In this document: piece after piece, positions 6,646 to 49,673 of the stretch
How the letters are laid out: every line of letters begins with the position of its first letter
Position numbering within the stretch: position 1 is the first letter of the stretch
NCBI RefSeq assembly: GCF_007744075.1
Contig: NZ_CP036266.1
Location: 620,001 to 684,000, forward strand
Source of the DNA: Gimesia chilikensis
GTDB lineage: Bacteria > Planctomycetota > Planctomycetia > Planctomycetales > Planctomycetaceae
Length of the DNA stretch: 64,000 nt
Direction of reading: 5' to 3'
The notes under the pieces: model-generated
Database searches by the model: none
What the model was told of the DNA's origin: nothing
The model's input: only the letters and a program-made list of their open reading frames with translations
Program-made: the position numbers and the translations under genes

Positions 6646-6703
6646 AAATGTAAGATGTAATGTAGCTCCAAGTCCAATTCTAATTTTAAACAAGGTGAAT
6701 GAC

Positions 6704-7306: not shown

Positions 7307-7467
7307 TTCCTGCTCCTAAAACCGTTCTTTGGGCCGAAAACTACGGTTCAGAAGCGTTCACTCACCCGTAAAAATCGTCATTCGTACTCGACAGTCAACC
7401 GGCTGAGGGCATACAATTGACGGTGCGGGTGAGTTATTTTTTTGTTTGTTACCAGGGAGACAAGCCC

Positions 7468-8175: not shown

Positions 8176-8281
8176 TTCTGTTGCCGGAGATGTGAGTCCG
8201 GTCAGGGCCAGGAGATTCGAAACTCGCTCGAATTTCAAAGTTATTTTATTTAGACAGGACGTGGAAACACCGCTTTTGCCT

Positions 8282-19303: not shown

Positions 19304-20107
19304 ATGGGCGATCAACCTCTTGTCGGAGTCAATGGTGCCAGCGGTCGGATGGGACAGCGGGTGGCTGTGCTCGTATATCAGGATCCGGATCTGAAACTGG
19401 GGGCTGCCCTGGAATCGGAGTCTTCTCCTGCCCTGGGGAAAGACGTGGGTGAAGTTGCCGGCATCGGTCCTGTTGGCCTGAACATTACGTCTGAGTTGAC
19501 CGACCGCGTGGATGTGATCATCGACTTCTCCCTGCCAGCCGGACTGGTGAAAATCGCCGGAGTCTGTGCTGAACGGCAGATTCCGCTGGTTGCTGCTACC
19601 ACGGGATTGACGCCGGAACAGCGAAACGAAGTGCTGACGGCTTCACAGACCACTCCCCTGATTCTGGCCCCCAATATGAGTGTGGCTGTGAATCTGATGA
19701 TGAAGCTGGTGCGGGAAGCCGCCCATTCGCTGAAGAATACTCCCAGTGGCGTGGACGTAGAAATCATTGAGCGGCATCACCGGTTTAAGGAAGATGCACC
19801 CAGTGGGACCGCATTGCACTTTGGTGAAATCATTGCCGACGAGATGGGGCAGACCGAACACGTTCACGGACGCGAAGGACGTCCGGGACCACGTCCGGTT
19901 TGTGAAATCGGCTATCACGCGTTGCGGACCGGCGACAATGTGGGTGAGCATACAATTGTCTTCGGCATGATGGGTGAGACGATTGACCTCACAGTCCGCG
20001 GCCATACCCGTGACAGTTATGTTTATGGCGCCCTGATGGCGGCCAAATATCTGACAACCCAGAAGGCGGGTCTGTATACAATGGCGGACGTGCTGGGCCT
20101 GAACTAA
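19304..20107 (+). CDS. dapB: 4-hydroxy-tetrahydrodipicolinate reductase
   Basis: DapB makes tetrahydrodipicolinate with NAD(P)H in the lysine/meso-diaminopimelate pathway, so it also feeds peptidoglycan synthesis. The 267-residue product starts with the dinucleotide motif GVNGASGRMGQRV. It contains VIDFSLPAG, VAATTGLTPEQ and the signature EIIERHHRFKEDAPSGTA (about residue 150). The ATG at 19304 has GGGAG 7 nt upstream; a GTG at 19286 in frame is rejected. DapB has relevance here because the same window carries the mre/PBP2 wall-elongation operon. Confidence 0.95.
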   Translation: MGDQPLVGVNGASGRMGQRVAVLVYQDPDLKLGAALESESSPALGKDVGEVAGIGPVGLNITSELTDRVDVIIDFSLPAGLVKIAGVCAERQIPLVAATTGLTPEQRNEVLTASQTTPLILAPNMSVAVNLMMKLVREAAHSLKNTPSGVDVEIIERHHRFKEDAPSGTALHFGEIIADEMGQTEHVHGREGRPGPRPVCEIGYHALRTGDNVGEHTIVFGMMGETIDLTVRGHTRDSYVYGALMAAKYLTTQKAGLYTMADVLGLN

Positions 20108-20141
20108 ATCTCGGCCTGTCAGTAAGTTATGTTGCAAATCT

Positions 20142-20179
20142 AAAACTGCCGGTACTATGCGATGGTGCCGGCAGTTTTT
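20142..20179 (+). terminator. Terminator after dapB
   Basis: AAACTGCCGG (from 20143) pairs with CCGGCAGTTT (to 20177), with further weak pairs inside, and ends in a T-run at 20174-20179. It lies about 35 nt after the stop. Confidence 0.8.
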
Positions 20180-20409
20180 GTTCTCAGCGACAGGTATCAC
20201 CGGTTTATTTTGGTAAGTCTGCCCCTTTTACCAAGTCTGTGAAATGATCAAGAGTGATACACCCGGTAACCGATACAAAAAGAGCGCTGACTGCCTCTCG
20301 ACAGAACAGATTGAGGGGGAGAACGGACACCGTGTCCTGTCTAACCGGAATTCAGGGATTGAATTCTGATCTGCTGTCAAAACAGAGTCCCGTCTCGAAG
20401 GATCGAGTC
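20180..20409. promoter_or_regulatory. Upstream region of the membrane protein/ExeA pair with inverted and direct repeats
   Basis: An inverted repeat TTGGTAA/TTACCAA sits at 20210-20216 and 20228-20234. A direct repeat AAGTCTG sits at 20215-20221 and 20233-20239, offset by 18 bases. Either could be an operator for the following gene pair. No gene is supported between the dapB terminator and 20410. Confidence 0.3.
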
Positions 20410-21012
20410 ATGAGCTGGCTGAAGTCTCTCAAATTCAAAAGCGTTCTGAGTCTCATTTCACGAGATTCCTCTCAAACCGAACGCCAATCTCGCTTTGGTG
20501 TTCGCTGGAACCAGACGGCTAAAGTCTTCGTCGGTTTGATCGCCAGTGTCTGTTCAATGATGGCACTGATCTCCTTCTTCGGTTCACTGGAAGAGCCTTC
20601 TGTGGAAGATAAGCTGCTTTCCGATGCCGAGTCGCTGGCACCGGATCTGGGAAGCGGGGATGAACTGTCGATGGAATTTGGTCTGGATGCGGAGCTGCCG
20701 CTGCAGGAAGCGGTTGCCGATGTGGAAGGAGCCATGGGGGAAGTACAGACGGTTTCTGTGGAGCAGGCAGCAGGCAGCGGAGAGACCGGTTCGGGAGTCT
20801 ATCATGCGTTGGGGCGCGATTATGGAGATCAGCAGACGAGTGGACGCGTCGAGCAGGTTTCTGGAGCGCATCCCATTTATGTGTCGAGTAACAGGCAGTC
20901 CGGGGGTACGCAGAATGCAAGCAGCTCCGGGGCTGCCTGGCTGACTGGAGAAATTGAAGAGCTCGAGCTGCCGACAGTGCGCAGCGCAGCTGTTCCTTCC
21001 AGAAATTATTAA
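20410..21012 (+). CDS. Single-pass membrane protein, unknown function
   Basis: A 200-residue protein. A basic N-terminus is followed by one membrane helix (FVGLIASVCSMMALISFF, about residues 40-58). A low-complexity acidic, Gly/Ser-rich region makes up the rest, presumably periplasmic if the basic end is inside. No domain is recognised. AAGGA lies 7 nt before the ATG at 20410; the frame stays open upstream to 20254 but without a good start. The gene ends 56 nt before the ExeA-type ATPase, suggesting a two-gene operon in which it could anchor or receive the ATPase's action. Confidence 0.6.
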   Translation: MSWLKSLKFKSVLSLISRDSSQTERQSRFGVRWNQTAKVFVGLIASVCSMMALISFFGSLEEPSVEDKLLSDAESLAPDLGSGDELSMEFGLDAELPLQEAVADVEGAMGEVQTVSVEQAAGSGETGSGVYHALGRDYGDQQTSGRVEQVSGAHPIYVSSNRQSGGTQNASSSGAAWLTGEIEELELPTVRSAAVPSRNY

Positions 21013-21068: not shown

Positions 21069-21896
21069 ATGTATCAGAGTTACTGGAATCTGCAGAGCGG
21101 CCCTTTCGAAGAAAAGATGGACGCTGGGTATTTTTATGAGAGCCACCCGCATCAGGCCGGACTGCTGAAGTTGCAATACCTGGTGGAGAACCGCAAGGGA
21201 GCCGGCCTGCTGGTCGGAAACCCGGGCAGCGGGAAATCCTACCTGTGCCACGTGCTGAAAAGTCAGCTTGCAGAGCGGCATCAGCCGTTCGTACAACTGG
21301 TCTTTCCCCAGCTTTCACCTGTCGAGTTGATTTCATATCTCGCGGTTGAGTTAGGGGCGGAAGAGGCGGGCATCGAGCCGGGAGTGACCGGTAAGGATCG
21401 CATCATCCGCGCCCTGCATCGGCAGTTACAGTTGCTTTGTGATCAGGGGGCACAGCCTGTGATCGTGATTGATGAAGCACATCTGATTGCAGATCAGCGA
21501 ATTTTCGAGACGCTGCATCAGTTGCTCAATTTTCAGCAGACCTCCGATGTCGACTTCACGCTGTTGCTGGTAGGAGACCGGTTGTTGCTGAGTCACCTGC
21601 AACGTTCCGCTCAGCTGGATGACCGCATTTCGGTCCGTTGTCTGCTCAGACCGTTTTCTGCGGAAGAGACACAACGGTACGTTGAGCATCGACTGCAGGT
21701 CGCCGGTCGGACCGAACCGGTGTTCGAAGCATCTGCATTCCAGACGTTGTTCGAACTGACGCAGGGGAATCCGCGGAAGATCAATCGTTTGTGTGATCTG
21801 GGGCTGCTGGTCGGTTATGCCGACGAACTGCCGCTGATTACGTCAGACGTTCTGGAAGCGGTTTCAGAAGAACTCGTAACCTCCATTCCAGACTGA
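21069..21896 (+). CDS. ExeA/GspA-type AAA ATPase
   Basis: A 275-residue AAA ATPase of the general-secretion ExeA (AAA_22) group. It opens with YWNLQSGPFEEKMDAGYFYES, a typical N-terminus of the family. Walker A is GNPGSGKS (about residues 48-55) and Walker B is VIVIDEAH (about 133-140). A sensor region LLLVGD and an arginine-rich lid (RFEV...NPRKINRLCDLGLLVGYA) follow. ExeA normally also has a peptidoglycan-binding C-terminus and helps place the secretin in the wall; this protein lacks it. The neighbouring membrane protein may substitute. Very similar short ATPases also occur in transposition modules (TniB), but no transposase is present. Confidence 0.82.
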   Translation: MYQSYWNLQSGPFEEKMDAGYFYESHPHQAGLLKLQYLVENRKGAGLLVGNPGSGKSYLCHVLKSQLAERHQPFVQLVFPQLSPVELISYLAVELGAEEAGIEPGVTGKDRIIRALHRQLQLLCDQGAQPVIVIDEAHLIADQRIFETLHQLLNFQQTSDVDFTLLLVGDRLLLSHLQRSAQLDDRISVRCLLRPFSAEETQRYVEHRLQVAGRTEPVFEASAFQTLFELTQGNPRKINRLCDLGLLVGYADELPLITSDVLEAVSEELVTSIPD

Positions 21897-21962
21897 TACT
21901 CATTCAGCGGAATAATTCTATTTAACGTAGTATCATCTACAGTTGAGTATATCGATTAAGTT

Positions 21963-21999
21963 ACGCGCTGACCTGTTTCTGAGGGCAGCGCGTTTTTTT
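21963..21999 (+). terminator. Terminator after the ExeA-type ATPase gene
   Basis: ACGCGCTG (21963-21970) pairs perfectly with CAGCGCGT (21986-21993) and is followed by seven Ts. Confidence 0.8.
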
Positions 22000-22075
22000 G
22001 TGAACCTGCTCCCGTGCTTTGGTGTCTGCTTCCCAACGGGTAATGCTACCCCATTAATTCGTACAGGGAAAAACC

Positions 22076-22156
22076 ATGTTTCACTTCTTCTCCAGCGAGA
22101 GTTCATCGAGCAGCTCGTCAGAATCTGACGGGACGGGGTCGGTGTGTGAAGTGTGA
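22076..22156 (+). CDS. Candidate small serine-rich protein, 26 residues
   Basis: An ATG at 22076 with a good ribosome-binding site AGGGA (22065-22069) 6 nt upstream opens a 26-codon frame. Eleven of the residues are serine, including seven in a row at positions 9-15, with an aromatic MFHFF start and one Cys near the end. A strong terminator starts 21 nt after its stop, and another terminator lies upstream, so the pair would bound a one-gene transcript. I could not identify a promoter. Alternatively the region is just a double terminator with chance reading frame. Confidence 0.4.
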   Translation: MFHFFSSESSSSSSSESDGTGSVCEV

Positions 22157-22177
22157 ACGTCGACATTGAATGAATTC

Positions 22178-22214
22178 AAGCCCGTCCGATTCTTTGATCG
22201 GACGGGCTTTTTTT
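22178..22214 (+). terminator. Strong terminator
   Basis: A 13-base perfect stem (22178-22190 with 22197-22209), a 6-nt loop and a seven-base T-run from 22208. Confidence 0.9.
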
Positions 22215-22367
22215 ATTGGTATGCCCCAGTTGGGGCGAGGCTCGCATTTTTTCGTTGCATCAGCCGATCTGGCGCTGCACGGGCACAAAAAGGCTGCTGA
22301 GGCTGCTCACCTCTTCAGCTGGCCGGCAGATGTGACACACTCCTCTTGAGAAAGGAGGCTATGAGCA

Positions 22368-23549
22368 ATGGTTCATAAAGTTCATGTGAATGTGGGAACG
22401 ATCGGTCATATCGATCATGGAAAGACAACGCTGACGGCTGCGATTTTGAAGGTGCAGGCACAGCGTGGTCTGGCGCGCGTCAAGTCGTACCAGGAGATCG
22501 CCCGCGGCGGTATCGAACGCGATAAAAACAAGACTGTGACGATCCTGGCGTCGCATGTGAAGTACGAAACGGACAAGCGGACGTACGCGCACATCGACTG
22601 TCCGGGACACGCGGATTACATCAAGAACATGATTTCCGGTGCAGCTCAGATGGATGGTGCGGTGCTGCTGGTCTCTGCCGCCGACGGTCCGATGCCCCAG
22701 ACACGCGAGCACATTCTGCTGGCGCGGCAGGTGGGTGTTCCGTACCTGGTCGTGTTTCTTAACAAGTGTGATCTGGTGGATGATCCGGAGCTGATCGAAC
22801 TGGTAGAGCTGGAGCTGCGGGAAATGCTGACGCATTATGGCTTTACTGGAGATGAAGTTCCCTTTATCTACGGTTCCGCGAAACTGGCCGATGCACGTCC
22901 GGATGATCCGGACGCCTCCCGGTGTATCCACGAACTGCTGGAGACGCTCGACACCTACGTGCCGGATCCGCAGAGGCTGACTGACAGGCCGTTTCTGATG
23001 TCGGTCGAAAACGTGTTCAGCATCATGGGCCGCGGGTCTGTGGTGACGGGTAAGATTGAACAGGGACAAATCCGTCCCGGCGATGCGGTCGAGATTGTCG
23101 GTCTGTGTGAAGATACGCGCACTGATGTTGTGACTTCGGTGGAGTCGTTCAACGCACTGGTCGACACGGGCTATGCCGGCGACAACGTGGGTTGCCTGTT
23201 GAGAAAGACGAACTACTCAGAAGTTTCGCGGGGTCAGGTGCTGGCAGCAGTTGGCACCGTGACGCCGTATCGAAACTTCGAGGCGGAAGTTTATGTTTTG
23301 AAAAAGGAAGAAGGGGGACGGCATACGCCTTTTTTTGATGGCTATACGCCCCAGTTTTTCTTTCGTACGACGAACGTCACGGGAACCGCACGGGTGGAAG
23401 GCCAGGCAGATCTGGCCATGCCCGGTGATGGTGTGACACTGAACGTGATGCTCAACCAGCCGATCGCGCTGGCTGAGGGGGACCGGTTTGCGATACGCGA
23501 AGGCAGCAAAACGGTCGGTTCGGGAGTGGTCACACGCGTGATTGCCTGA
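22368..23549 (+). CDS. Divergent elongation factor Tu paralogue
   Basis: A 393-residue three-domain EF-Tu. GTPase motifs are intact: GHIDHGKTT (P-loop), DCPGH with the catalytic His at residue 81, and NKCD. Domains 2 and 3 are complete ([33 protein letters not shown]). It differs from normal EF-Tu in switch I: R-G-I-T-I is K55-T56-V57-T58-I59, with two extra residues before it. The amino-acid pocket has N215 in the V-E-N-V-F motif where E. coli has Asp (I-E-D-V-F). It stands alone with no ribosomal, secE or nusG genes. AAAGGAGG lies 9 nt before the ATG. The main tuf gene is presumably elsewhere; this one may be a specialised or antibiotic-tolerant form. Confidence 0.9.
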
Positions 23550-23555
23550 TGTGGG

Positions 23556-23591
23556 TGCCCCTGGTCTGCCTTGGTGGATCAGGGGCATTTT
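23556..23591 (+). terminator. Terminator after the EF-Tu paralogue
   Basis: TGCCCCTG (23556-23563) pairs with CAGGGGCA (23580-23587) and is followed by a short T-run. Confidence 0.7.
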
Positions 23592-23805
23592 ACTGGAGCA
23601 GCAGTGCTGTTCGTGGCCGTGTTCTGTTTTAGTCTGCGTGAAAATGGGGGACAGCCCTTGCGAAATACAGGGGGTCGGGTTCACAATAGGCCAATTCATT
23701 TCAACCCGATAGGGAAATCTCGTTGCGTGTGGGAGTAATACAGGCCAGCTTAAAAGCGGTCTGAATCGATTCCCTGCACGGACCGTCAACAAGGTAAATG
23801 TCTGA

Positions 23806-25584
23806 ATGTGGTCTTCGCGTCTGTTCTGGAAACTGTTCCTGGTTTATGCCGGTCTGAATATTGCTTCCGCGATTGTATTCGTGTTGATTGTTTCGGGACG
23901 CCAGAAAACCCAGGTGGAAGACCAGGTGCAGCAGCGTCTGCATGACTCAGCGGTGATCATGCGGAGCAGCATGGAGGGGGTCTTCGACAGAGGATTCTCT
24001 GAGCAGCTGCAGATCAAAGTTGAGAAGCTGGGGGCAGAAACCGGCACGCGGATTACGCTGATCGACATGGACGGGGTCGTGATTGCCGATTCGGATCAGA
24101 GTTCACTGCAGCTGGTCCGCGACATGGAAAACCACAAAAACCGGGTGGAAGTCATCAAAGCGCTGGCCACGGGTTCGGGGACTTCCGAACGGAGAAGTCC
24201 GACACTGAGTGAGCCCATGAAGTATTATGCGCTCTTGTACCGGCATGATGGCGAGCCTAAGGGGGTGGTGCGTGTTTCGATCACGATGTCCAAAATTCAG
24301 CTGGAGATCGCGTCGATTGAGAAGCTGATCTGGAGTATTGCGCTACTGGTCAGCTTTACCGTGATGTTGATTACCTATTGGGTGGTCGCTCGCATGATCC
24401 GTCCCCTGACGATTCTGACCAATGCAGCCGAGTCGATTGCCAATGGGGATTACGATCAGAAACTGTATTTCCCCCAGCATGATGAGCTGGGAATCCTGGC
24501 CCAGTCCTTTAATCATATGAGCAAGGAAATGGCCGAACGCGTGCGTCAGCTGCAGGCGAGCGGTGATCGTCTGAGTACCGTGCTGGAGGGTATGGTCGAG
24601 GGCGTAATCGCGACCAATGAACGACAGCATGTGCTGTTTGCCAACGAGTCGGCGGGGCGGTTGTTGTTTTTCTCGCCGGAAGAGGCACAGGGTAAGCCGC
24701 TGTTTGAATCGGTACGAAATCATCAGCTGCAAAAGGCGGTGACAGAGGTGTTAAAAACCCTGGAACCCCAGCGGATGGAAGTCGAACTCGAGAGTACCAG
24801 CGATCGGATTCTGGGGGTGACCACGACTCCGCTGCCCGGCACTCCCTGTCCGGGTCTGGTGATCGTGTTGTTTGATATGACCGAGTTACGGCGGTTGGAA
24901 TCATTGCGTCAGGAGTTTGTTGCGAATGTCTCACATGAATTGAAGACGCCTTTGAGTTCCATCAAGGCGTATACGGAGACCCTGATCCGTGGCGCGATGG
25001 ATGATCCGGAGATCAGCAAAACCTTTCTGATGCGGATCGAAGAACAGGCAGACCGTCTGCACCAGCTGATTCTCGACTTGATCAGCCTGGCGAGTATCGA
25101 ATCAGGAAATCAGGTCTTCGATATTATCAGTATCGAGCTGCGTCCGTTTGTTGAGTCCTGCCTGGTAGATCAACAGACTGTGGCGGAGTCAAAGCAGATT
25201 GAACTGATTATCGAAGAGCAGGAGCCCGGTTTGCGGGTCAAAGCTGACGAAGAAGGCTTGCACCAGATCCTGGGGAACCTGATCAACAACGCGATCAAGT
25301 ACACGCCGGAGCAGGGAACGATTACGATTCGCTGGCAGCGTGATGAAGGTAACATGGTGTTACTGCAGGTGCAGGATACCGGGATCGGGATTGAGGAGAA
25401 GCATCTGGCCCGTCTATTCGAGCGGTTCTTCCGGGTCGACAAAGCGCGTTCGCGTGAGCTGGGTGGAACCGGGCTGGGGCTCTCCATTGTGAAGCATCTT
25501 GTACAATCGTTTAATGGTACGATTGGTGTGACCAGTAAGGTCGGGACAGGAACGACGTTTTCTGTCCGTCTCCCCCGTGGCTGA
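23806..25584 (+). CDS. phoR: Phosphate-regulon sensor histidine kinase PhoR-like
   Basis: A 592-residue membrane kinase. Helix 1 is at about residues 10-30, an extracytoplasmic sensor loop runs to about 165, and helix 2 is at about 170-192. HAMP follows (RMIRPLTILTNAAESIANGD), then a PAS domain (about 250-360). HisKA has FVANVSHELKTPLSS with the phospho-acceptor His377. The ATPase domain has NLINNAIKYTPEQG, DTGIGIEEKHLARLFERFFR and GGTGLGLSIVKH. A periplasmic domain is larger than in E. coli PhoR. It heads a phosphate gene cluster that ends in phoB, so its role is phosphorylation and dephosphorylation of PhoB in response to phosphate. Motif assignment is direct; the substrate is inferred from context. 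Confidence 0.9.
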   Translation: MWSSRLFWKLFLVYAGLNIASAIVFVLIVSGRQKTQVEDQVQQRLHDSAVIMRSSMEGVFDRGFSEQLQIKVEKLGAETGTRITLIDMDGVVIADSDQSSLQLVRDMENHKNRVEVIKALATGSGTSERRSPTLSEPMKYYALLYRHDGEPKGVVRVSITMSKIQLEIASIEKLIWSIALLVSFTVMLITYWVVARMIRPLTILTNAAESIANGDYDQKLYFPQHDELGILAQSFNHMSKEMAERVRQLQASGDRLSTVLEGMVEGVIATNERQHVLFANESAGRLLFFSPEEAQGKPLFESVRNHQLQKAVTEVLKTLEPQRMEVELESTSDRILGVTTTPLPGTPCPGLVIVLFDMTELRRLESLRQEFVANVSHELKTPLSSIKAYTETLIRGAMDDPEISKTFLMRIEEQADRLHQLILDLISLASIESGNQVFDIISIELRPFVESCLVDQQTVAESKQIELIIEEQEPGLRVKADEEGLHQILGNLINNAIKYTPEQGTITIRWQRDEGNMVLLQVQDTGIGIEEKHLARLFERFFRVDKARSRELGGTGLGLSIVKHLVQSFNGTIGVTSKVGTGTTFSVRLPRG

Positions 25585-32480: not shown

Positions 32481-33296
32481 TCAATTACTGCTGTTTTCGG
32501 GGGCAAGATTGAGCAGTTCCACTTTCCGGAACTGAACCGGGTGACTTTCCGACTGCAGGGAAATGGTTCCTTTATCCAGCATGATTGGGGCGCCCTGTTC
32601 GATCAGCTTCTGGGCATCGGCGTCTTTGGGGTCGAGCTGAGGCTTGGTGTACGACAGCACGGTTTCCCCATCAATGACGTGTTTGATGATCTTGTTGCCT
32701 TTGACTTCGACGTCAACGGTCACCCACTGATCGCCCCGATAGGTTTTGGAAGAGGAGTCGATGCAGTGGGGCATGAAGAGTTTGTTGTCCATGACGACAT
32801 TCGTACCCGGGGTGCAGAGGTTGGCCGTGCTGCGTTTGCCCGTCGGTTTCCCACCCAGCAGCTGGACTTCAATGGAAACCGGAAAACGCTGGTCGAGGGA
32901 CATGCTTTCGGGGCTCTGGCCGTGGACCATGATACCGCTGTTACGAAATGCCCAGCCCGGTCCGCCTTTGACCTGATCGCCGATGAAACGATATTCCACG
33001 CGGATGATGTAGTGGGAAAAGGAGTCTTTGTAGAAGATGTGACCGAATTTTTCATCGAAGGCATCGTAGTGCTCATAGTCGACGGTGAGTAACCCGTCCT
33101 TCACCCGAAATGTATCTGCATAATTGACGCCTGGTTCATAACCCCGAATTTTGACCGTCCAGCCATCCAGGTTCTTCCCGTTGAACAGGGGGATCCATTT
33201 TTCCTGAGTTGCTTTCTCTTCAGCAGAGAGAGTAGCAGGCAGGCAGAGTGTCAGGCAGAGAGACAGACCGGCAATGAGAGCAGATGCGGTTTTCAC
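32481..33296 (-). CDS. Secreted DUF1080 (3-keto-glycoside hydrolase-like) protein
   Basis: A 271-residue exported protein with signal peptide (IAGLSLCLTLCLPATLSAEE). The rest is one DUF1080 concanavalin-like beta-sandwich: WIPLFNGKNLDGWTVK near residue 35, then IMVHGQ, IEVQLLGG and GTISLQSESHPVQFRKVELL. DUF1080 proteins are annotated as 3-keto-disaccharide hydrolases, and homologues act by eliminating the glycosidic bond after C3 oxidation. The start is a GTG with AAGGA 8 nt upstream. It is a single gene between bfr and a small lipoprotein gene. Confidence 0.82.
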   Translation of the reverse strand: MKTASALIAGLSLCLTLCLPATLSAEEKATQEKWIPLFNGKNLDGWTVKIRGYEPGVNYADTFRVKDGLLTVDYEHYDAFDEKFGHIFYKDSFSHYIIRVEYRFIGDQVKGGPGWAFRNSGIMVHGQSPESMSLDQRFPVSIEVQLLGGKPTGKRSTANLCTPGTNVVMDNKLFMPHCIDSSSKTYRGDQWVTVDVEVKGNKIIKHVIDGETVLSYTKPQLDPKDADAQKLIEQGAPIMLDKGTISLQSESHPVQFRKVELLNLAPENSSN

Positions 33297-39121: not shown

Positions 39122-40351
39122 TCAGAGTTTGAGGTGGATCTGGTTCTTCTCCAGATGCCGGACAATCAGCCATGTGATCCAGAAGAAGAGCAGGAAACTG
39201 CCCCAGGCGTACCACCAGGGAGCGTCTTTCGTGGCGAAGGGCTTGATGGATTCCATGACGAGGTCGTGCAGAATGTAGGCGGCCAGAGCGTTGGTTCCCA
39301 GCGTGCGAAACAGGGGGATATTCAGGTTGCCTCGATCGCAGGCGAGGTGAAACAACAGGTAGACGAACAGTGACAGTCCCGCTGAGAAGACGAGGTACGA
39401 GAGTGTTCCCGCCCGTTGGCTCATCATCCAGTAGTTCCATTTTCGCTGATCCTGCTCCGGCGGTTTGACAAACGGAGGTTCCGCCAGATAAGCGGAGAAC
39501 GGCTCTCCCTCTTTGGCTTTGAATTGTGCTTCTGTAGGAATGACCGGATGGATGGCCAGTTTCAGATCCTGGTTGCCTGCCATGGATTGATCTATTGCGG
39601 GCACATCATAGAGACGGGTCCCACAGGAGATGATCCAGCCTGAAAGCATCAACGCACACGACCAGAACAGGATGGGCTTGATGCGGGGCAGTCCTTCTGC
39701 TTCCACGACCCAGTCGCAGGCGAGCGTGCCGATGATGGCGGGGATGGTCCAGGTCAGAAAGCCCAGCGGTCCGCCGTCGATGCCGTTGGGGGGCGAGTTG
39801 ACCCAGGTGAAATAAAAGTAGTACGAGAGCACCACATGCGCGGCGGCGGAAAAGAGCATATAGACGATCCGCACGGAGGCCCGGGCGCGGATCACGGGCG
39901 TGATCCAGAGCGAGGTGACGGCGATGTGCATCAGCGTCTGGAACCAGTTACGTTTGAGTGGATCGGCAATGGCGCCCCAGACGCCGATCGACTGCAGTTC
40001 GCTCCAGCTTTTCGCGACCGGTGAGACGCGGTAGATGATCAGCGAGACCATTACCAGTCCCAGCAGGCGTCTGACTACCCGCAGGTAAGCCGAGACGGCC
40101 CCCTGGGTCTGTATCCGTCTGCCGAAGGTCAATCGATAAGCAAAGCCGACCGCGAACAGGAAGTGGGGCATGATCGTGTCAGCATAACTGCAGTATGTAT
40201 TGTGATGTTTGAGCACGATCGGGCAGAGGATGAAGAAGCCCATGTAGTTCACAAGGAACATGCCCGCTACGGTGTAGCCCCGGAACTGGTCGAGGGAGAC
40301 GATGCGTTTCCGGTTTTTGTCAGCGGTCGCAGCCGGGGCGGTGTCTGTCAT
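39122..40351 (-). CDS. HGSNAT/DUF5009-like acyltransferase membrane protein
   Basis: A 409-residue polytopic membrane protein with about ten helices. The N-terminus IVSLDQFRGYTVAGMFLVNYMG and the His-containing first loop (CPIVLKHHNTYCSYADTIMP) match the heparan-alpha-glucosaminide N-acetyltransferase / DUF5009 family, in which a conserved His acts in acetyl transfer across the membrane. A soluble loop of about 50 residues lies between late helices. Planctomycetes carry several. The acceptor could be a sugar amine. It lies head-on with the chemoreceptor gene and 8 nt beyond it. Confidence 0.75.
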   Translation of the reverse strand: MTDTAPAATADKNRKRIVSLDQFRGYTVAGMFLVNYMGFFILCPIVLKHHNTYCSYADTIMPHFLFAVGFAYRLTFGRRIQTQGAVSAYLRVVRRLLGLVMVSLIIYRVSPVAKSWSELQSIGVWGAIADPLKRNWFQTLMHIAVTSLWITPVIRARASVRIVYMLFSAAAHVVLSYYFYFTWVNSPPNGIDGGPLGFLTWTIPAIIGTLACDWVVEAEGLPRIKPILFWSCALMLSGWIISCGTRLYDVPAIDQSMAGNQDLKLAIHPVIPTEAQFKAKEGEPFSAYLAEPPFVKPPEQDQRKWNYWMMSQRAGTLSYLVFSAGLSLFVYLLFHLACDRGNLNIPLFRTLGTNALAAYILHDLVMESIKPFATKDAPWWYAWGSFLLFFWITWLIVRHLEKNQIHLKL

Positions 40352-40948: not shown

Positions 40949-42109
40949 TCAGCGCGTCTGTTTTTGTTCGCGGCGGAACTGGCCGGGGGTGGTGCCGGTC
41001 TGTTTTTTGAAGGCGACGTTCAGATATTCGGAGTGGCGAAAGCCGGTGCGGCTGGCGATTTCGATCAGAGGGAGTTCGGTTTCTTCGAGCAACTGTTTTA
41101 CACGATCGAGGCGGATGCGCATGATCTCTTCGTGTGGTGAGCGGCCGATGATTTTCTGGAAGCGGCTTTCGAGGACCCGCCGGGAGAGGGGGACCGACTT
41201 TAAAACGTCCTGCACGTTAATGCCTTCGCAGGCCTGCTGGCGGATGAAGCGGACGGCGTCGGAAATCAGTTTGTCGTCGATGGCCTGGATATCGGTGGAC
41301 TGGCGCGTGGCAATACCCAGAGGTTTGATGAGATGAGCGTCTGAAGAGACCGGTTCGCCGGCGATCATGCGATCGAGCAGGGCGGCTGCTTCGTAGCCGG
41401 TGAGACGCGTGTTGGGGATCACGCTGGAGAGGGGAGGCTCGGAGAGGTTACAGAGAATTTCATCATTGTCCACGCCGATGATGGCGACCTCTTCGGGAAC
41501 AGAGACGTTGATCGTACGGCAGACATCGAGCAGTTGCTGCGCTTTAATGTCGTAACAGGCCATGATGCCGACCGGTTTGGGGAGTTGCTGAATCCAGTCG
41601 GCCAGGCGTTGCTGTTCGGCTTCCCAGGGGGGCGCCTGTTTGCGACCGGCGGTCTGCGGATAGGCGTGACAGGTGAAGCCGGCGTCCTGGATGACGTTCT
41701 GGAAATGGTCTTCCCGCCAGCGGGACCAGTTGAAGCGATGATCGCCGCAGAAGGCGTAGTGCTCGAAGCCGCGTTCGATGAGGTGCTGCGCGGCCAGGGA
41801 GGCGATGGCGCGGTCATCGGTTTCGACCCAGGGGAGGGAGGGGGCCAGACGGGCGGCACTGACATCGACGGCCGGGACGCCGGAGTTCACGACGGCTTCG
41901 GCGGTCTTCGTGTTTTCAATTCGCGCGATGATGCCGTCGCCGTGCCAGCTGTTGAGCCAGTTGACGGGGACGTTGCCTCGGCCATGTTCGGGGAGGTAGA
42001 TCGACCAGGAGTGGTGCTCGTGGATGTAAGCCATGATGCCACGTAAGAGTCCGCGGGCATAGGAGTTGGATGATTCGATGAGCAGGGCGATTGAGGGGCG
42101 TGATTTCAT
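40949..42109 (-). CDS. XylR-type AraC-family regulator
   Basis: About 386 residues. The N-terminal two-thirds is a LacI/periplasmic-binding-protein-like sugar sensor (IALLIESSNSYARGLLRGI; VETDDRAIASLAAQHLIERGF; EVAIIGVDNDEILCNL). The C-terminal 100 residues are an AraC double helix-turn-helix (VQDVLKSVPLSRRVLESRF; LIEIASRTGFRHSEYLNVAF). This is the XylR arrangement and usually activates sugar catabolic genes upon binding a sugar. Start is taken at the ATG 42109 because family members begin near RPSIALLIESS; the frame stays open to 42187. It faces away from the Gfo/Idh/MocA gene, a typical regulator-target pair. Confidence 0.85.
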   Translation of the reverse strand: MKSRPSIALLIESSNSYARGLLRGIMAYIHEHHSWSIYLPEHGRGNVPVNWLNSWHGDGIIARIENTKTAEAVVNSGVPAVDVSAARLAPSLPWVETDDRAIASLAAQHLIERGFEHYAFCGDHRFNWSRWREDHFQNVIQDAGFTCHAYPQTAGRKQAPPWEAEQQRLADWIQQLPKPVGIMACYDIKAQQLLDVCRTINVSVPEEVAIIGVDNDEILCNLSEPPLSSVIPNTRLTGYEAAALLDRMIAGEPVSSDAHLIKPLGIATRQSTDIQAIDDKLISDAVRFIRQQACEGINVQDVLKSVPLSRRVLESRFQKIIGRSPHEEIMRIRLDRVKQLLEETELPLIEIASRTGFRHSEYLNVAFKKQTGTTPGQFRREQKQTR

Positions 42110-42376
42110 AGAGCCGGTTTCGGGCGGAATTGAGGGCGACGTAAATGTAATATTCTTAAAGGGATTCCGTGACAGCTCGTCTGGCAAACGGTCTCAGACC
42201 CCTGATAGCATGGATGAGGGCAGTTTTGTTGTGCGGTGAAATATCTCAATTTATTATGCGCAAGTTTACATGGTACTCGATCAGGGGGCATTTACAATAA
42301 AGAAAATGGGCCGGGTTCCCCTGATGAGGGAACCGGATCAAACAGAGAGTCTCTCCTGCAGCGTAGAAGGAATGCC
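42110..42376. promoter_or_regulatory. Divergent control region between XylR-type regulator and dehydrogenase
   Basis: About 267 bases separate the two divergent genes. They contain AT-rich TATCTCAATTTATTATG (about 42243-42259) flanked by similar TTGTGCG (42228-42234) and TGCGCAA (42258-42264) half-sites. These could be an operator. GAAGGA lies before the dehydrogenase ATG. Confidence 0.35.
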
Positions 42377-43560: not shown

Positions 43561-46500
43561 ATGGCTCGTTACTCCCTGTTCCTGTTATCGCTGATTCTGG
43601 CGGCACCGCTGGCTGCTGCAGAGGAGTTCACGCTCCACCAGTTTGACCGTCTGCAACTGGGGGATAAGTTCTATGCGGAAGGGGCGACCTTCGGCGATCT
43701 GAACCGGGACGGTCACCAAGATCTGATTTCCGGACCGTATTGGTATGCGGGGCCGGATTTCAAAACGAAGCACGAGTACTATCCGGTCAAGGAATGGAGC
43801 ATTAACGGCTATTCCGACAACTTCTTTGCATTTGTGAATGATGTCAACAAGGATGAGTGGCCCGATATTGTGATCATCGGGTTCCCCGGTAAGGAAGCTT
43901 ACTGGTATGCGAATCCGCAGAAACAGTCGGGGCACTGGAAGCGGTACCTGGCGCATCCGGTGGTCGATAACGAGTCGCCGACGTATACCGACCTGACTGG
44001 GGATGGAGAGCCGGAACTGGTGTTCCACACGGGGGGACAGCTCGGCTATGCGGGGCCGGGGAAAGATCCGACGAAGCCTTGGAGCTTTCATGCGGTCTCG
44101 CCCAATCTGAAGTATGGTCGCTTTACGCACGGGCTGGGTGTGGGTGATGTGAATGGCGACGGAAAGCAGGACATCCTCGAGAAGAACGGCTGGTGGGAAC
44201 AACCGGCTGATCTGCAGAAAGCCGGTTTCTGGACTCGGCACCCATTTAAGTTTACTGGTGCGGGCGGTTCGCAGATGTACGCTTACGACGTGGATGGCGA
44301 CGGGGACCAGGATGTGATCACCAGCAAGGCGGCCCACGCGTATGGTCTCTCCTGGTTTGAGAACGTCAAGAAAGATGGCGAGATTACGTTCGTCGAGCAT
44401 CCGATCATGGGGAGCAAGCCTGAAGAGAACAAGTATGGAGTGGTCTTCTCACAGTTGCACGCCGTCGATCTGGTGGACATGGACGGCGACGGGATTAAGG
44501 ACATTGTAACCGGGAAACGGTTCTGGGCGCACCAGGGGCATGATCCGGGAGCGAAAGAACCGCCGGTCAACTACTGGTTTAAAATTGTGCGGACGCCGAA
44601 GGGTGTGGATTTTCTGCCTTACCAGATTAATGACAAGTCGGGAGTGGGGACCCAGGTGGTCGCCGGCGATGTGACGGGGAACAAGCTCCCGGATCTGGTA
44701 GTGGGGAATAAGTCGGGCACATATCTGCTGAAGCATAAACAGGTGAAAGTAGATGAAGCGACCTGGAAAAAGGCACAGCCGAAAAAGTATGTGCCCAAGA
44801 AAGTCTCGGTGAAGAATGAACTCAAGCCGGGCGAGCATTTCGCTACAAACGCAGACGGACGACGGTTGAATCTCGATTTCGAGACCGGTGATCTGAAAGA
44901 CTGGGTTTCGGAGGGAGAGGCATTCCGTTCGCAGCCGGTCAAAGGGGATACGGTCAAGGCGCGTCGTCGTGATATGGTGAGCAATCACCAGGGACAGTAC
45001 TGGGTGGGTACCTATGAGGTGCTGGAAGATGTGCCCGTGGGGACACTGTCTTCGGCTTCGATCAAAGTGACACATCCTTATGCCACGTTTTATGTCGGTG
45101 GCGGAAGTCACGATTCGACGCGTGTCGAAATTGTGGACCGGGCGACAAACAAGGTGATCGCGAAAGCCAGTGGTCGCAACAATGAGCGGATGCACCAGGA
45201 GCTGGTGGATCTGACGAAATACCAGGGCAAAGAGATCTTCATTCGACTGGTGGATCAGCATAAGGGAGGCTGGGGACACATTAACTTCGATCATTTCCGC
45301 TTCCACGATAAAAAGCCCGCACAACTGGAAGTAGCGGACAGTGGAGCCCCCGCGCAGGAGCATACACAAAAGTATGACGGTCTGCCCGGAAAGAAGGCGG
45401 CGGAAGTGATGTCGGTACCGGACGGGTTTTCGGTCTCACTGGTTGCTGCCGAACCTGATGTGCAGCAGCCGATCGCGATGACGATTGACGATCGCGGGCG
45501 TTTGTGGGTGGCGGAATCGTATGCCTATCCCAGCAAGCAGCCGGAGGGAAAAGGGAAAGACCGGATTCTGATTTTCGAAGACAAAGATGCCGACGGCAAA
45601 TTTGAGACGCGGAAAGTCTTTCAGGAGAAGCTGAACCTGGTGAGCGGTCTGGAAGTCGGTTTTGGCGGCGTGTGGGTGGGGCAGGCGCCGTACCTGCTGT
45701 TCATTCCCGATAAGAACGGCGACGATAAGCCAGACGGAGAACCCGAGATTCTACTGGACGGCTGGCATTACGAAGATACGCACGAAACGTTGAACTCGTT
45801 CATCTGGGGGCCGGATGGCTGGCTCTACGGCTGCCACGGTGTGTTTACGCATTCCCGGGTCGGGAAGCCGGGTACCCCCGATGATCAGCGACAGCCGATC
45901 AATGCCGGGATCTGGCGGTATCATCCGACGCGGCACGAATTCGAAGTCTTTGCGCACGGGACGAGTAACCCGTGGGGTGTGGACTTCAACGATCAGGGGC
46001 AGTGCTTTCTGACCTGCTGTGTGATTCCGCACCTGTTTCATATTGTTCAGAACGCACGCTATCGCAGACAGGCAGGGCAGCATTTCAATCCTTACACTTA
46101 CGACGACATTAAAACGATTGCCAAACACCGGCACTGGACCGGTGGGCAATGGAACCAGTCGGACCGGGTCGCTTCAGACCGGGTGGGCGGGGGACACGCG
46201 CATGCCGGGGCGATGATCTACCTGGGAGGCAGCTGGCCGAAGAAGTATCACAATCAGTTGTTCATGAATAACATTCATGGTGCCCGTTTGAATCAGGATC
46301 AGCTGGCCCGCGAAGGGTCGGGATATATTGGCGACTTCGCTCCCGATTTCCTGTATGCGAACGATCGTTCCTCACAGATTCTGTATCTGCGGTACGGTCC
46401 GGACGGGCAGGTCTATTTCATTGACTGGTATGACACGAACCAGTGCCATCATCGTGAATTTCAAAAGCACGACCGTTCGAACGGGCGGATTTTTCGCGTG

Positions 46501-48786
46501 GCATATAACGATGCGAAGCCGGTCAAAGTCGATCTGCAAAAACTGACGAGTGCTGAGCTGGTCAAGCTGCAACTGCACGAGAACGACTGGTACGTGCGGC
46601 AGTCCCGACGCATTCTGCAGGAGCGTGGTGCCGACCCGGAAGTGCACGCACAACTGGCGGAGATTGCCTTCGGTAATGACGACGTGACGCGTCGCCTGCG
46701 AGGATTGTGGGCCCTGCATGTGACGGGGGGACTTTCGGAAGCGAAAGTGATGCAGGCTTTAAAAGACCCGAGCGAATTCATGCGGGGCTGGGCGATACAG
46801 TTGGCGCTGGAGACGGGAGAGCCGTCAAAGCAGTTGTTGGAAACAATGGAAGCACTGGCGAAGCAGGATCCTTCACCGGTGGTGCGTCTCTACCTGGGAT
46901 CAGCGGCCAACCGGCTGCCACTGGATCAGCGGGCGGGAATTCTCAAAGGTCTGGTGAGTCACGCGGAAGATCAGCACGATCATAATCTGCCGCTGCTCTA
47001 TTGGTATGCCCTGGAGCCGCTGGCACCGCATGATATGCAGCAAGCCTATGCCCTGGCGAAAGATGCGAAGATTCCGCTGATCGAGTCGTACACATTGCGG
47101 CGGATCGCGGATATCGGAACGGAAGAGGCGGTCGCGTTTCTGGTGGAACAGCTGGGAGATGCACAGGCTGCGGATGAGCAAAAAGTCTTTCTGGATTCGA
47201 TTAACAGCGCACTGCGGGGACGACGCCAGTTTCCGATGCCGGTACCCTGGAAGAGTGTGGGTAAACGACTGATGGCGAGCCAGGATCCGGTGGTGAAGTC
47301 ACGTTCTTTGTCGCTGGCGGTGACCTTTGGTGACCCGGCGGCAATGCAGCGCTTGCGGGAAATCGTCGCGGACCAGAAGAACGATCTGGCGGGACGGAAG
47401 TCGGCCTTGGATAGTCTGCTGGGAGTCCGGGATCCGCAACTGGTGCCAATTCTGATTCCGTTGCTGGATCAGAAGGGAATCCGCCGCGAAGCACTGCGGG
47501 GGCTGGCCGGTTACCCGGATGCAGCGATCGCGACTGCGATCCTGGAGCGGTATCCTCAGTACGATTTGAATGAGAAGCGGGATGCGTTAAATACGCTGGC
47601 AAGTCGTTTGAATTTCGCGGAGCAGCTGGTGGCTGCGGTCGAAGCGGGTGAAGTCCCTTCCAAGGATCTGTCTGCGGAAATTATCCGTCAGCTGGGGAAT
47701 CTCAAAGATAAAGAGCTGAATGCCAAGATCGGTAAGGTATGGGGCGTTGTCCGCGAGTCGGCAGCGGATAAGAAAAAACTGATCGCCAGCTATAAGAATA
47801 TGATCGAGCGACCGCATCCGACGCCTGATATCAACCTGGGACGGGCGATTTTTGCGAAGACCTGCCAACAGTGCCATAAGCTGTTTGGAACAGGAGCCAG
47901 CATTGGTCCGGAACTGACCGGTTCGAACCGGGCCAACCTCGATTATCTGCTGTCGAACGTGGTCGATCCGAGTGCGGTGATGGCGAAGGATTATCAGCCG
48001 GCCGTGATTGTCACGGAATCAGGGCGGATTATTACCGGGATCATCAAGAAGGAAGATAAGAACGCGGTGACGGTCGCGACGGCGAACGAGACGGTGATTA
48101 TTCCTCGTGACGAAATCGACGAGATGAGCCTGAGTGACAAGTCGATGATGCCTGATAACCTGTGGAAACAGCTGAGCCGGATCGAGGTACGTTCGCTGGT
48201 CAAATATCTGGCGAGCCCCGGCCAGGTGCCGATGAAGGCGACGCCGGAGAATCTGAAGCAGTTCTTTAACGGTCAAGATCTGACCGGCTGGACGGGGGAC
48301 AGTCAGCTCTGGTTCGTGGAGAACGGTGAGATTGTAGGCCGTTCGCCGGGGATCAAGCGGAATGAGTTCCTGGTGAGTGACATGCTGGTCGGTGATTTCG
48401 AACTGAAGGTCAAAGTAAAGCTCACCCCGAATGCAGGGAACAGCGGGATTCAGTTCCGCAGCAGTCTGCAGCCAGGAGGCCATGTCAAAGGGTACCAGGC
48501 CGACATCGGTGCCGGCTGGTGGGGCAAGCTGTATGAAGAACATGGCCGGGGTCTGTTATTCAAGGAATCCGGAGAGCAGCATGTCCGTGAAGGGGACTGG
48601 AATGAATACCGGGTGGTTGCTGTCGGCCCGCGGATTCGGACTTACATCAACGGTAAATTGTGCACGGATCTGAATGACCCCCAGGGAGCCAAGTCCGGCA
48701 TTCTGGCGTTTCAGATTCATTCTGGCGGGCCGATGGAGGTCCGCTTTAAGGATCTGGAATTGCGCCTGGATCCTCCCCGGGATTAA
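43561..48786 (+). CDS. Giant secreted FG-GAP / PVC dehydrogenase-propeller / HEAT / cytochrome c / DUF1080 fusion
   Basis: 1741 residues. Signal peptide 1-20. About seven FG-GAP/VCBS calcium-loop repeats span 40-390 (NRDGHQD, NGDGKQD, DGDGIKD). A galactose-binding-like beta-sandwich covers about 430-590. A glucose/sorbosone dehydrogenase-like propeller, the PVC 'membrane-bound dehydrogenase' domain, lies at about 612-985 (FSVSLVAAEPDVQQPIAMTID). HEAT-like helices run 1000-1410. A PVC-type c-haem domain has the motif C1435-Q-Q-C-H1439 and a late Met-rich axial region (SMMPDN). A DUF1080 domain closes it at about 1563-1737. The gene lies 68 nt after the Gfo/Idh/MocA gene. The order suggests that one polypeptide oxidises a bound glycan, wires electrons through haem and breaks the bond with the DUF1080 part. 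Confidence 0.85.
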   Translation: MARYSLFLLSLILAAPLAAAEEFTLHQFDRLQLGDKFYAEGATFGDLNRDGHQDLISGPYWYAGPDFKTKHEYYPVKEWSINGYSDNFFAFVNDVNKDEWPDIVIIGFPGKEAYWYANPQKQSGHWKRYLAHPVVDNESPTYTDLTGDGEPELVFHTGGQLGYAGPGKDPTKPWSFHAVSPNLKYGRFTHGLGVGDVNGDGKQDILEKNGWWEQPADLQKAGFWTRHPFKFTGAGGSQMYAYDVDGDGDQDVITSKAAHAYGLSWFENVKKDGEITFVEHPIMGSKPEENKYGVVFSQLHAVDLVDMDGDGIKDIVTGKRFWAHQGHDPGAKEPPVNYWFKIVRTPKGVDFLPYQINDKSGVGTQVVAGDVTGNKLPDLVVGNKSGTYLLKHKQVKVDEATWKKAQPKKYVPKKVSVKNELKPGEHFATNADGRRLNLDFETGDLKDWVSEGEAFRSQPVKGDTVKARRRDMVSNHQGQYWVGTYEVLEDVPVGTLSSASIKVTHPYATFYVGGGSHDSTRVEIVDRATNKVIAKASGRNNERMHQELVDLTKYQGKEIFIRLVDQHKGGWGHINFDHFRFHDKKPAQLEVADSGAPAQEHTQKYDGLPGKKAAEVMSVPDGFSVSLVAAEPDVQQPIAMTIDDRGRLWVAESYAYPSKQPEGKGKDRILIFEDKDADGKFETRKVFQEKLNLVSGLEVGFGGVWVGQAPYLLFIPDKNGDDKPDGEPEILLDGWHYEDTHETLNSFIWGPDGWLYGCHGVFTHSRVGKPGTPDDQRQPINAGIWRYHPTRHEFEVFAHGTSNPWGVDFNDQGQCFLTCCVIPHLFHIVQNARYRRQAGQHFNPYTYDDIKTIAKHRHWTGGQWNQSDRVASDRVGGGHAHAGAMIYLGGSWPKKYHNQLFMNNIHGARLNQDQLAREGSGYIGDFAPDFLYANDRSSQILYLRYGPDGQVYFIDWYDTNQCHHREFQKHDRSNGRIFRVAYNDAKPVKVDLQKLTSAELVKLQLHENDWYVRQSRRILQERGADPEVHAQLAEIAFGNDDVTRRLRGLWALHVTGGLSEAKVMQALKDPSEFMRGWAIQLALETGEPSKQLLETMEALAKQDPSPVVRLYLGSAANRLPLDQRAGILKGLVSHAEDQHDHNLPLLYWYALEPLAPHDMQQAYALAKDAKIPLIESYTLRRIADIGTEEAVAFLVEQLGDAQAADEQKVFLDSINSALRGRRQFPMPVPWKSVGKRLMASQDPVVKSRSLSLAVTFGDPAAMQRLREIVADQKNDLAGRKSALDSLLGVRDPQLVPILIPLLDQKGIRREALRGLAGYPDAAIATAILERYPQYDLNEKRDALNTLASRLNFAEQLVAAVEAGEVPSKDLSAEIIRQLGNLKDKELNAKIGKVWGVVRESAADKKKLIASYKNMIERPHPTPDINLGRAIFAKTCQQCHKLFGTGASIGPELTGSNRANLDYLLSNVVDPSAVMAKDYQPAVIVTESGRIITGIIKKEDKNAVTVATANETVIIPRDEIDEMSLSDKSMMPDNLWKQLSRIEVRSLVKYLASPGQVPMKATPENLKQFFNGQDLTGWTGDSQLWFVENGEIVGRSPGIKRNEFLVSDMLVGDFELKVKVKLTPNAGNSGIQFRSSLQPGGHVKGYQADIGAGWWGKLYEEHGRGLLFKESGEQHVREGDWNEYRVVAVGPRIRTYINGKLCTDLNDPQGAKSGILAFQIHSGGPMEVRFKDLELRLDPPRD

Positions 48787-48836: not shown

Positions 48837-49673
48837 TCACTCAAAAAAGCCGCACTCCCGCAGGTAGACTACACTCTGCTTGACGCGGTTGTGATGTTCT
48901 TCCAGCGTCAGCTCCGGTTCCCCTTCGATGCCTTCGATTTCGAGACTGTAGGGACCATTGAAGTTATTGTCTTCCAGGATGTAGCGGATCTTCAAGAAGT
49001 CAACGCCTCCCGCTTCGCCCAGGGCGGCGAAATTCCAGTCCTTGAATTTGCAGTAGGAATCCTTGAGGTGCACGTGTTTGACCCAGGTGACGACCTCGTG
49101 CAGGGACTCCAGAACATTCGCGTGCTCGTTGTAGTAATTGATGTTGCCGGTGTCGAAGTTGAGCCGCAGGTTCGGGTGATCCAGGTCCTGCATGGTGCGG
49201 AGCATGCCGGCTGCGTTGACGCAGATGCCGGGATGTGTTTCGAAGCAGTAGGTGATGCCCTGTGCTCCTGCGTAATCGCCGATTTCACGGAGGTGCTGGT
49301 AGAGGGTGTCACGATCCGATTCCTGTTCGATTTCTCCTGCGCCGCCTACAACGAGTTTGACACCCAGCTGATGAGCGAGGTCGAGCTTTCGTTTCGTCTT
49401 GATGACGACTTCCGGATCGAGGGGATTGCCGGTGGTAATGTTGCAGCTCGAGAGTTTCACATGGTGTTGTTTCAACAGATCTTTGACGTGCGCGATATCC
49501 TCAGCGGTGGAGGCTTCCGTGAGCAGCGGAGTCTCTTTGAAGAACGAGGGGACGCCGTGGTTTTTGATGTTGAGTTCGAGGTGATCGATTCCGGCATCGC
49601 GGATGTTTTCGATCGCGGCGACGGGACCAAAGCGACCGTAGGAGTTGGTCAGGCAGGAAACGAGGGCGGCCAT
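48837..49673 (-). CDS. TIM-barrel sugar phosphate isomerase/epimerase-like enzyme
   Basis: A 278-residue AP-endonuclease-2/xylose-isomerase-like TIM barrel. Metal-binding acidic and His residues are in ITYCFETHPG (Glu at about 144), LRLNFDTGNINYY, WVKHVHLKDSY and YSLEIEGIEGEPE. Such enzymes in planctomycetes are part of keto-sugar and inositol pathways. It lies convergent to the fusion gene and may share its substrate. The promoter would lie between it and the TPR gene at 49822. Confidence 0.85.
   Translation of the reverse strand: MAALVSCLTNSYGRFGPVAAIENIRDAGIDHLELNIKNHGVPSFFKETPLLTEASTAEDIAHVKDLLKQHHVKLSSCNITTGNPLDPEVVIKTKRKLDLAHQLGVKLVVGGAGEIEQESDRDTLYQHLREIGDYAGAQGITYCFETHPGICVNAAGMLRTMQDLDHPNLRLNFDTGNINYYNEHANVLESLHEVVTWVKHVHLKDSYCKFKDWNFAALGEAGGVDFLKIRYILEDNNFNGPYSLEIEGIEGEPELTLEEHHNRVKQSVVYLRECGFFE

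Follow-up and report, generated by a model that had tools for sequence, protein, structure and literature searches.

A 64,000-nucleotide window of the Gimesia chilikensis genome, which is complete on a single contig of 8.29 Mb, holds a gene whose product joins a dehydrogenase-type propeller, a c-type haem domain and a 3-keto-disaccharide hydrolase/DUF1080 domain in one chain. The gene occupies 43561..48786 (+) of the window as one open frame with an ATG start, encoding 1741 amino acids and a stop. Its closest named relatives are from metagenome-assembled genomes of Gimesia, with a best-segment identity of 85-86% over the whole protein. The module order is a signal peptide, FG-GAP/VCBS, a domain that we label 'SAND', a DUF7133/TIGR02604 propeller, HEAT, a TIGR02603 haem domain and PF06439. 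An earlier note made from the sequence alone (the original prediction) had claimed this string of modules, overlooking 'SAND', and Pfam and NCBIfam profile searches of each segment bear the claim out.

All modules lie on the forward strand. A Sec-type signal peptide (residues 1-20, MARYSLFLLSLILAAPLAAA, 43561..43620), judged by eye on the translation, precedes the FG-GAP/VCBS propeller domain (residues ~21-400, 43621..44760), which was placed by alignment and by Pfam, where FG-GAP_3 (89.6 bits) and FG-GAP both exceed their cut-offs. 'SAND' follows (residues ~430-590, 44848..45330) and is conserved across the fusions. The six-bladed dehydrogenase-type propeller (residues 611-983, 45391..46509) is delimited by Pfam, NCBIfam, hhalign and a predicted model; DUF7133 matches over its whole length with 236.1 bits against a cut-off of 27, and TIGR02604 over residues 622-983 with 405.6 bits against 122.2, the best TIGR02604 score in the genome. 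The HEAT-type helical solenoid (residues ~990-1420, 46528..47820) combines a HEAT_2 match of 33.4 bits (cut-off 27.7) with helices in the predicted model. Next comes the TIGR02603 c-type haem domain (residues 1423-1552, 47827..48216; 107.4 bits, cut-off 68.15), which also matches Cytochrom_C with 22.1 bits (cut-off 21.3) and, under its cut-off of 27, Cytochrome_CBB3 with 21.6. A motif scan finds the claimed CQQCH haem-attachment motif at residues 1435-1439 (47863..47877), and it is the sole CxxCH of the protein. PF06439 closes the chain (residues 1566-1735, 48256..48765; 125.7 bits, cut-off 26.8). PSCyt and PSD domains are absent from the Pfam matches of the protein.

The fusion recurs within the phylum. 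A query across the haem-DUF1080 junction, run at E<=1e-55 against 392 Planctomycetota genomes including that of G. chilikensis, matched 54 places in 52 genomes (44/217 among good genomes), with a single place per genome in 50 of the 52. Both halves of the query were spanned at 52 places in 50 genomes, while the places in genomes G247 and G373 cover one half only. Because the junction recurs at so many places and none of the 54 has a stop inside the matched stretch, the single-chain fusion is real and not a product of chance. Within the G. chilikensis genome, paralogues of the modules are numerous (39 matched places for TIGR02604 and 37 for PF06439, although one frame sometimes accounts for several). 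Context was read for 40 of the 54 places: propeller, cytochrome and DUF1080 share one frame at 36, the modules are spread over more than one frame at three, and one has cytochrome and DUF1080 only. VCBS stands first at 23 of the 40 places, last at seven, and is missing at six. For the tree and for residue counts we used 70 cores whose propeller-to-cytochrome stretch is 880 residues or longer. Loci L074, L079 and L085-L126 except L086 had been left out beforehand, L086 and split or truncated copies fell under the length limit, and the row pairs L036/L151 and L022/L160, on zero-length branches, are probably the same genome twice. In this tree the VCBS-last copies group in a single clade (support 0.986), which arises from within the VCBS-first and VCBS-less copies, some of the VCBS-less ones being fragments at contig ends. 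This pattern is most economically read as one relocation of the VCBS module and several losses.

The two C-terminal domains retain their characteristic residues. The haem domain matches the structure of Kustd1711 (7ZS0, E 3.3e-21), and Met1530 (48148..48150), a Met in 62/62 fusions, aligns with the distal haem ligand Met292 of that protein. CxxCH is retained in 70/70 cores; judged by these residues, the c-haem domain is intact. The DUF1080 domain keeps N1627-S-G, W1680 and H1720, which are the family's most conserved positions rather than experimentally known catalytic residues; three putative active-site residues of the family appear in a figure of PMC9765024. The original prediction was to fall if the propeller lacked any dehydrogenase pocket and the DUF1080 part its conserved residues; at the level of sequence, both the fold and these positions are retained. 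A second, stand-alone DUF1080 gene lies at 32481-33296 (-) of the window (131 bits).

The propeller resembles known sugar oxidoreductases. Its structure was assessed on one AlphaFold2 model (residues 610-1741) and one VIA-align comparison, whose rows cover the propeller plus one row for the DUF1080 part. The predicted propeller is six-bladed, with the fold of pyrroloquinoline quinone (PQQ) sugar dehydrogenases, and hhalign aligns it to these enzymes with 97.4% probability (E 1.1e-11). His741 (45781..45783), kept in 62/62 fusions, aligns with His147 of E. coli YliI, the site of His144, the catalytic base of soluble glucose dehydrogenase (sGDH; PMC6881810). The comparison with the predicted model suggests that the propeller is a divergent relative of the PQQ sugar dehydrogenases/AA12. 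In addition, ten His, Cys820 and Cys962 are invariant in 62/62 fusions; by our assignment from the DSSP string, seven of the His lie in loops, two at strand ends of the PQQ-side face and one elsewhere. Distant TIGR02604 members retain only part of this His set.

In another phylum the same parts occur as separate neighbouring genes. Among 395 Bacteroidota genomes, four unfused propeller-cytochrome genes were found in three genomes at E<=1e-100. At Flaviramulus locus L079, a SusC/SusD-like pair is followed by adjacent genes for DUF1080, propeller-HEAT-cytochrome and FG-GAP. A DUF1080 gene lies directly upstream of the propeller-cytochrome gene at 3/4 loci (L079, L173, L174), an FG-GAP gene directly downstream at 2/4 (L079, L172), and SusC/SusD-like genes beside it at 2/4 (L079, L173); L172 has a SusC-like fragment farther upstream. 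No such pair accompanies the fusion in the window. That a SusC/SusD cluster from a different phylum carries the parts side by side as separate genes suggests that propeller, haem carrier and DUF1080 act jointly to dismantle glycans by oxidation. The L079 cluster also encodes, near the unfused modules, a PSCyt1/PSCyt2/PSD1 protein that includes a DUF2231 membrane part (21142-24027).

Other combinations of these modules exist. Locus L066 carries an FG-GAP-DUF1080 fusion without a propeller; L074 a GDSL-DUF7133-HEAT chain adjoining an FG-GAP gene; and L016 a ThuA-DUF7133-HEAT-CBM4_9-cytochrome c chain (6665-10990), behind which lie a stand-alone FG-GAP gene and an FG-GAP-SAND-propeller-cytochrome gene. 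Directly behind the fusion gene at L133 (13414-17220) and L137 (12905-16720) lies a chain with an N-terminal DUF1080 and a C-terminal haem domain, which at L133 also matches Bac_rhamnosid_N. Within the G. chilikensis genome, shared frames were judged from frame length and the register of listed places. ThuA, which acts on 3-keto-trehalose, is in one frame with TIGR02604 three times; one DUF1080 shares a frame with a TIGR02604 that scores under its cut-off; and one TIGR02604 gene is preceded by a frame combining DUF1080 and ThuA. A 665-residue frame at genome positions 7314131-7315894 (+) (L001, L168) has a DUF1080 place and then, in register, a place for GSDH, a PQQ-type sugar dehydrogenase; on that register, the genome contains another type of fusion between an oxidase-like part and DUF1080.

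We also measured proximity, within 4 kb, to the 24 TIGR02604 frames of this genome (29 with weak ones, a place of 20.6 bits being excluded), using over-cut-off places for PF06439 (35/37) and ThuA (10/12). ThuA was near TIGR02604 in 4/10 cases (p 0.0010; p 0.0018 with weak TIGR02604). Sulfatases, taken as 104 of 109 places after four second pieces were merged and one below cut-off was dropped, showed no enrichment (2/104, p 0.67), and a sulfatase link was rejected.

The claimed neighbours of the fusion gene, a Gfo/Idh/MocA enzyme, an XylR-type regulator and a TIM barrel, are all present by Pfam. The gene for the Gfo/Idh/MocA oxidoreductase (PF01408, 42377..43492, +), which by eye has no signal peptide, stops 68 nt short of the fusion gene; its start was taken at the ATG at 42377, which has AAGGA upstream, in an open reading frame that opens at 42236. 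The XylR-type regulator (PBP1_XylR, Peripla_BP_3 and AraC HTH_18; 40949..42187, -) is divergent, and an AP_endonuc_2 TIM barrel (48837..49673, -) is convergent. The NCBIfam matches of the TIM barrel are to IolO, IolE and L-ribulose-5-phosphate 3-epimerase families, none over cut-off, and with such weak matches a role as levoglucosan-type hydratase/eliminase was set aside as conjecture. The gene order is conserved in Gimesia loci L009-L012, L127 and L128, as far as the contigs reach. A 409-residue protein at 39122-40351 (-) adjoins the XylR-type regulator in the same order in those loci, and matches nothing in Pfam or NCBIfam at E<=0.001.

We consider it an even proposition that the fusion is an exported machine that both oxidises and cleaves glycans. 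In such a machine, the FG-GAP and 'SAND' domains would bind or present the glycan, and the TIGR02604 propeller would oxidise a ring hydroxyl, most likely at C3 of a terminal glycosyl unit. Electrons would pass to the TIGR02603 c-haem and then to the respiratory chain. The keto-unit, its C2 proton now acidic, would be released by the C-terminal DUF1080 domain via hydrolysis or beta-elimination, and the product imported; in Gimesia, the cytosolic Gfo/Idh/MocA enzyme and the TIM barrel could then reduce or hydrate the imported keto-sugar. Such a downstream role is plausible by analogy, since operons for oxidation, elimination, hydration and reduction use Gfo/Idh/MocA- and TIM-type enzymes (PMC10628242, PMC7676230). 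The evidence for the machine consists of domains, motifs, predicted fold, conservation and gene context; from it we infer the substrate, the C3 position, the cofactor, the electron path, the order of steps and any channelling. More tentatively, and with distinctly lower confidence, the TIGR02604 propellers as a whole (~30 frames in this genome) may be glycoside (3-)dehydrogenases of a new class, linked to haem c and built around a His-rich centre that possibly dispenses with PQQ; many of them would be coupled to a bond-breaking partner of their own (DUF1080, ThuA or GDSL). On this view the fusion would be the complete version in a single chain, oxidising and cleaving while it retains the reactive keto-glycoside.

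Several observations weigh against an oxidising and cleaving machine. The Arg of the Arg/Asx dyad, which in sGDH sits at the PQQ ketones with the Arg assisting PQQ (PMC6881810), is replaced by Ser in 62/62 fusions, here in Ser802-Asn803 (45964..45969), with the Asn kept as Asn803; and sGDH oxidises C1, not C3 (PMC6881810). In a propeller profile search the sugar dehydrogenases of the PDB score weakly (2g8s E 0.0098, 7cdy E 0.086) and are outranked by designed Pizza propellers and PknD, and the window propeller is not among the seven PF07995 (GSDH) places of the genome at E<=0.001. The top PqqE score is 63.8 bits (cut-off 381) and PqqC has no match in this genome, but 0/14 control genomes exceeded the cut-off for PqqE and the control for PqqC was likewise silent, so absence of PQQ synthesis is not proven. 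PQQ as the cofactor was marked down on the Arg to Ser replacement; the PqqE and PqqC results point the same way, with uninformative controls. Not every DUF1080 is a 3-keto enzyme: THTE_1561 is cited as an endo-xanthanase/lichenase (PMC9007349). PF06439 lies near TIGR02604 in 3/35 cases (p 0.052), or 4/35 with weak TIGR02604 (p 0.028), the window gene being included in both counts, which is too weak for proximity alone to carry the argument. The unfused arrangement is rare (3/395 Bacteroidota genomes, that of L079 included), and Gfo/Idh/MocA proteins might do the oxidation instead. Oxidative deglycosylation in one chain, as first proposed, is partly supported: the propeller fold, the intact haem, the DUF1080 positions and the unfused SusC/SusD neighbours are on its side, with the replaced dyad Arg against it.

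Some of these points would fit other schemes. One that we regard as unlikely makes the propeller an ordinary aldose-type C1 dehydrogenase with scavenged PQQ feeding the haem, while DUF1080 cleaves or binds glycan independently of oxidation. It agrees with the fold and the catalytic His, both shared with PQQ sugar dehydrogenases, and with the Coprinopsis AA12 pyranose dehydrogenase, a PQQ propeller with a cytochrome b domain and CBM1 (PMC4332668, PMC6881789) in which several His also line the PQQ pocket (PMC6881789). PQQ is used but not made by fungi and E. coli (PMC6881810), and DUF1080 belongs to the GH16 clan (PMC5352709). The replaced Arg in all 62 fusions counts against such a C1 enzyme, as do the unrecognised PqqE and PqqC, for what their controls allow, and the propellers of the wider family that share frames with PF06439 and ThuA, which are tied to 3-keto sugars. 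It is no more probable that the propeller is non-redox (binding, lactonase-like or metal-hydrolytic), with the haem fed by another enzyme and DUF1080 acting on 3-keto-glycosides made elsewhere, for instance by Gfo/Idh/MocA. CxxCH in 70/70 cores argues otherwise, since an electron source is then expected in or near the chain; moreover, the upstream Gfo/Idh/MocA protein lacks a signal peptide by eye, whereas the fusion has one.

Upstream genes were counted in a set of 75 frames, each holding a propeller plus one or more of VCBS, SAND and DUF1080; 67 of them have enough upstream sequence. The set takes in incomplete frames and copies without DUF1080, and excludes the window and L043. A Gfo gene lies directly upstream in 11/39 VCBS-first, 1/20 VCBS-less and 0/8 VCBS-last frames, and not in the other 55/67 (28/39, 19/20, 8/8); the split genes L011 and L031 count as VCBS-less even though each has a Gfo gene in front of its VCBS frame. 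Gfo/Idh/MocA as the system's oxidase was, in its simple form, marked down after these counts. The invariant residues raise a further scheme, which we judge improbable: the His-rich top face (ten His with Cys820 and Cys962) as a metal centre of a new metal-dependent, haem-c-coupled glycoside oxidase/dehydrogenase. Invariance throughout the fusions and the placing of nine His in loops or at strand ends of the face that holds PQQ in relatives speak for it, but the clustering is argued from topology rather than coordinates, and the His set is incomplete in more distant TIGR02604 members.

An exported route that oxidises and then cleaves has counterparts among known systems. LacA is a GMC flavoprotein; the GMC oxidoreductase family PF05199 has no match in the G. 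chilikensis genome, with controls positive in 5/14. A 2024 study reportedly described a broad-specificity 3-keto glycan pathway with DUF1080 as the 3-keto cleaving enzyme. BT2158/BT2159-family 3-dehydrogenases are Gfo/Idh/MocA enzymes. The glucoside 3-dehydrogenase LacABC, with a periplasmic DUF1080 3'-ketolactose hydrolase (Caulobacter, Pedobacter), involves export, a periplasmic 3-keto-glycoside and proposed DUF1080 cleavage (PMC9007349), but by separate proteins rather than one chain. In the Bacteroides BT2157-BT2160 pathway, DUF1080 (BT2157) is the 3-keto cleaving enzyme (PMC9007349) and BT2158/BT2159-family 3-dehydrogenases oxidise, whereas Gimesia has the fused haem-coupled propeller. 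The fungal AA12 enzyme CcPDH (AA8 cytochrome b - AA12 PQQ propeller - CBM1) differs in its b-type haem, in having no bond-breaking domain and in the dyad Arg that is Ser in the fusion. PVC-type haem-binding CxxCH proteins (TIGR02604 + TIGR02603) share propeller, HEAT and haem domain with the fusion, but of the genome's ~30 TIGR02604 frames only two contain a DUF1080 place as well. Kustd1711 (7ZS0), a Ca-tuned anammox cytochrome with a homologous haem domain, a Met distal ligand and a haem potential of about +350 mV with Ca, differs in its two haem domains and its tie to nitrogen metabolism, with no propeller reported in the portion of the source available.

He et al. 2017 (PMC5615132) remarked that cytochrome proteins specific to planctomycetes and equipped with carbohydrate-binding domains may parallel glycoside hydrolases while working by another mechanism, their function then being obscure. 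The PSCyt and PSD domains treated there are those missing from the Pfam matches of the fusion. We found no description of a DUF1080-cytochrome-propeller fusion among the titles and abstract starts of the literature matches listed, most subscription papers lying outside coverage, and no statement on TIGR02604 protein function in the searchable literature. Together, the fusion, the unfused SusC/SusD form and the frame-sharing with ThuA provide a testable assignment, namely haem-coupled oxidation as the first step of an extracytosolic 3-keto glycan route. Planctomycetes are thought important for marine polysaccharide turnover, and the assignment, if true, would add a respiratory way to open glycans.

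The two N-terminal domains of the fusion also occur elsewhere. 'SAND', a conserved domain of ~155 residues between FG-GAP and propeller, has a mean column identity of 57% over 21 fusion sequences; Pfam does not match the window copy, and its matches to the other 20 are scattered and weak. A search of the G. chilikensis genome found one place. In the Bacteroidota SusC/SusD cluster of L079, two related copies form the N-terminal part of an AraC-type regulator (19491-20966, -; 100 bits), and 'SAND' is possibly a ligand-binding domain common to enzyme and regulator. It is also found in a 726-residue frame beside the fusion at L131 (6913-9090, -). In Verrucomicrobia loci (L047-L080 among others), FG-GAP usually stands alone as a protein of ~440 residues that shares ~50% identity with the window domain. 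An alignment of 40 sequences has 50 invariant columns, which exceeds the need of a mere spacer, and the stand-alone FG-GAP protein may therefore be an enzyme.
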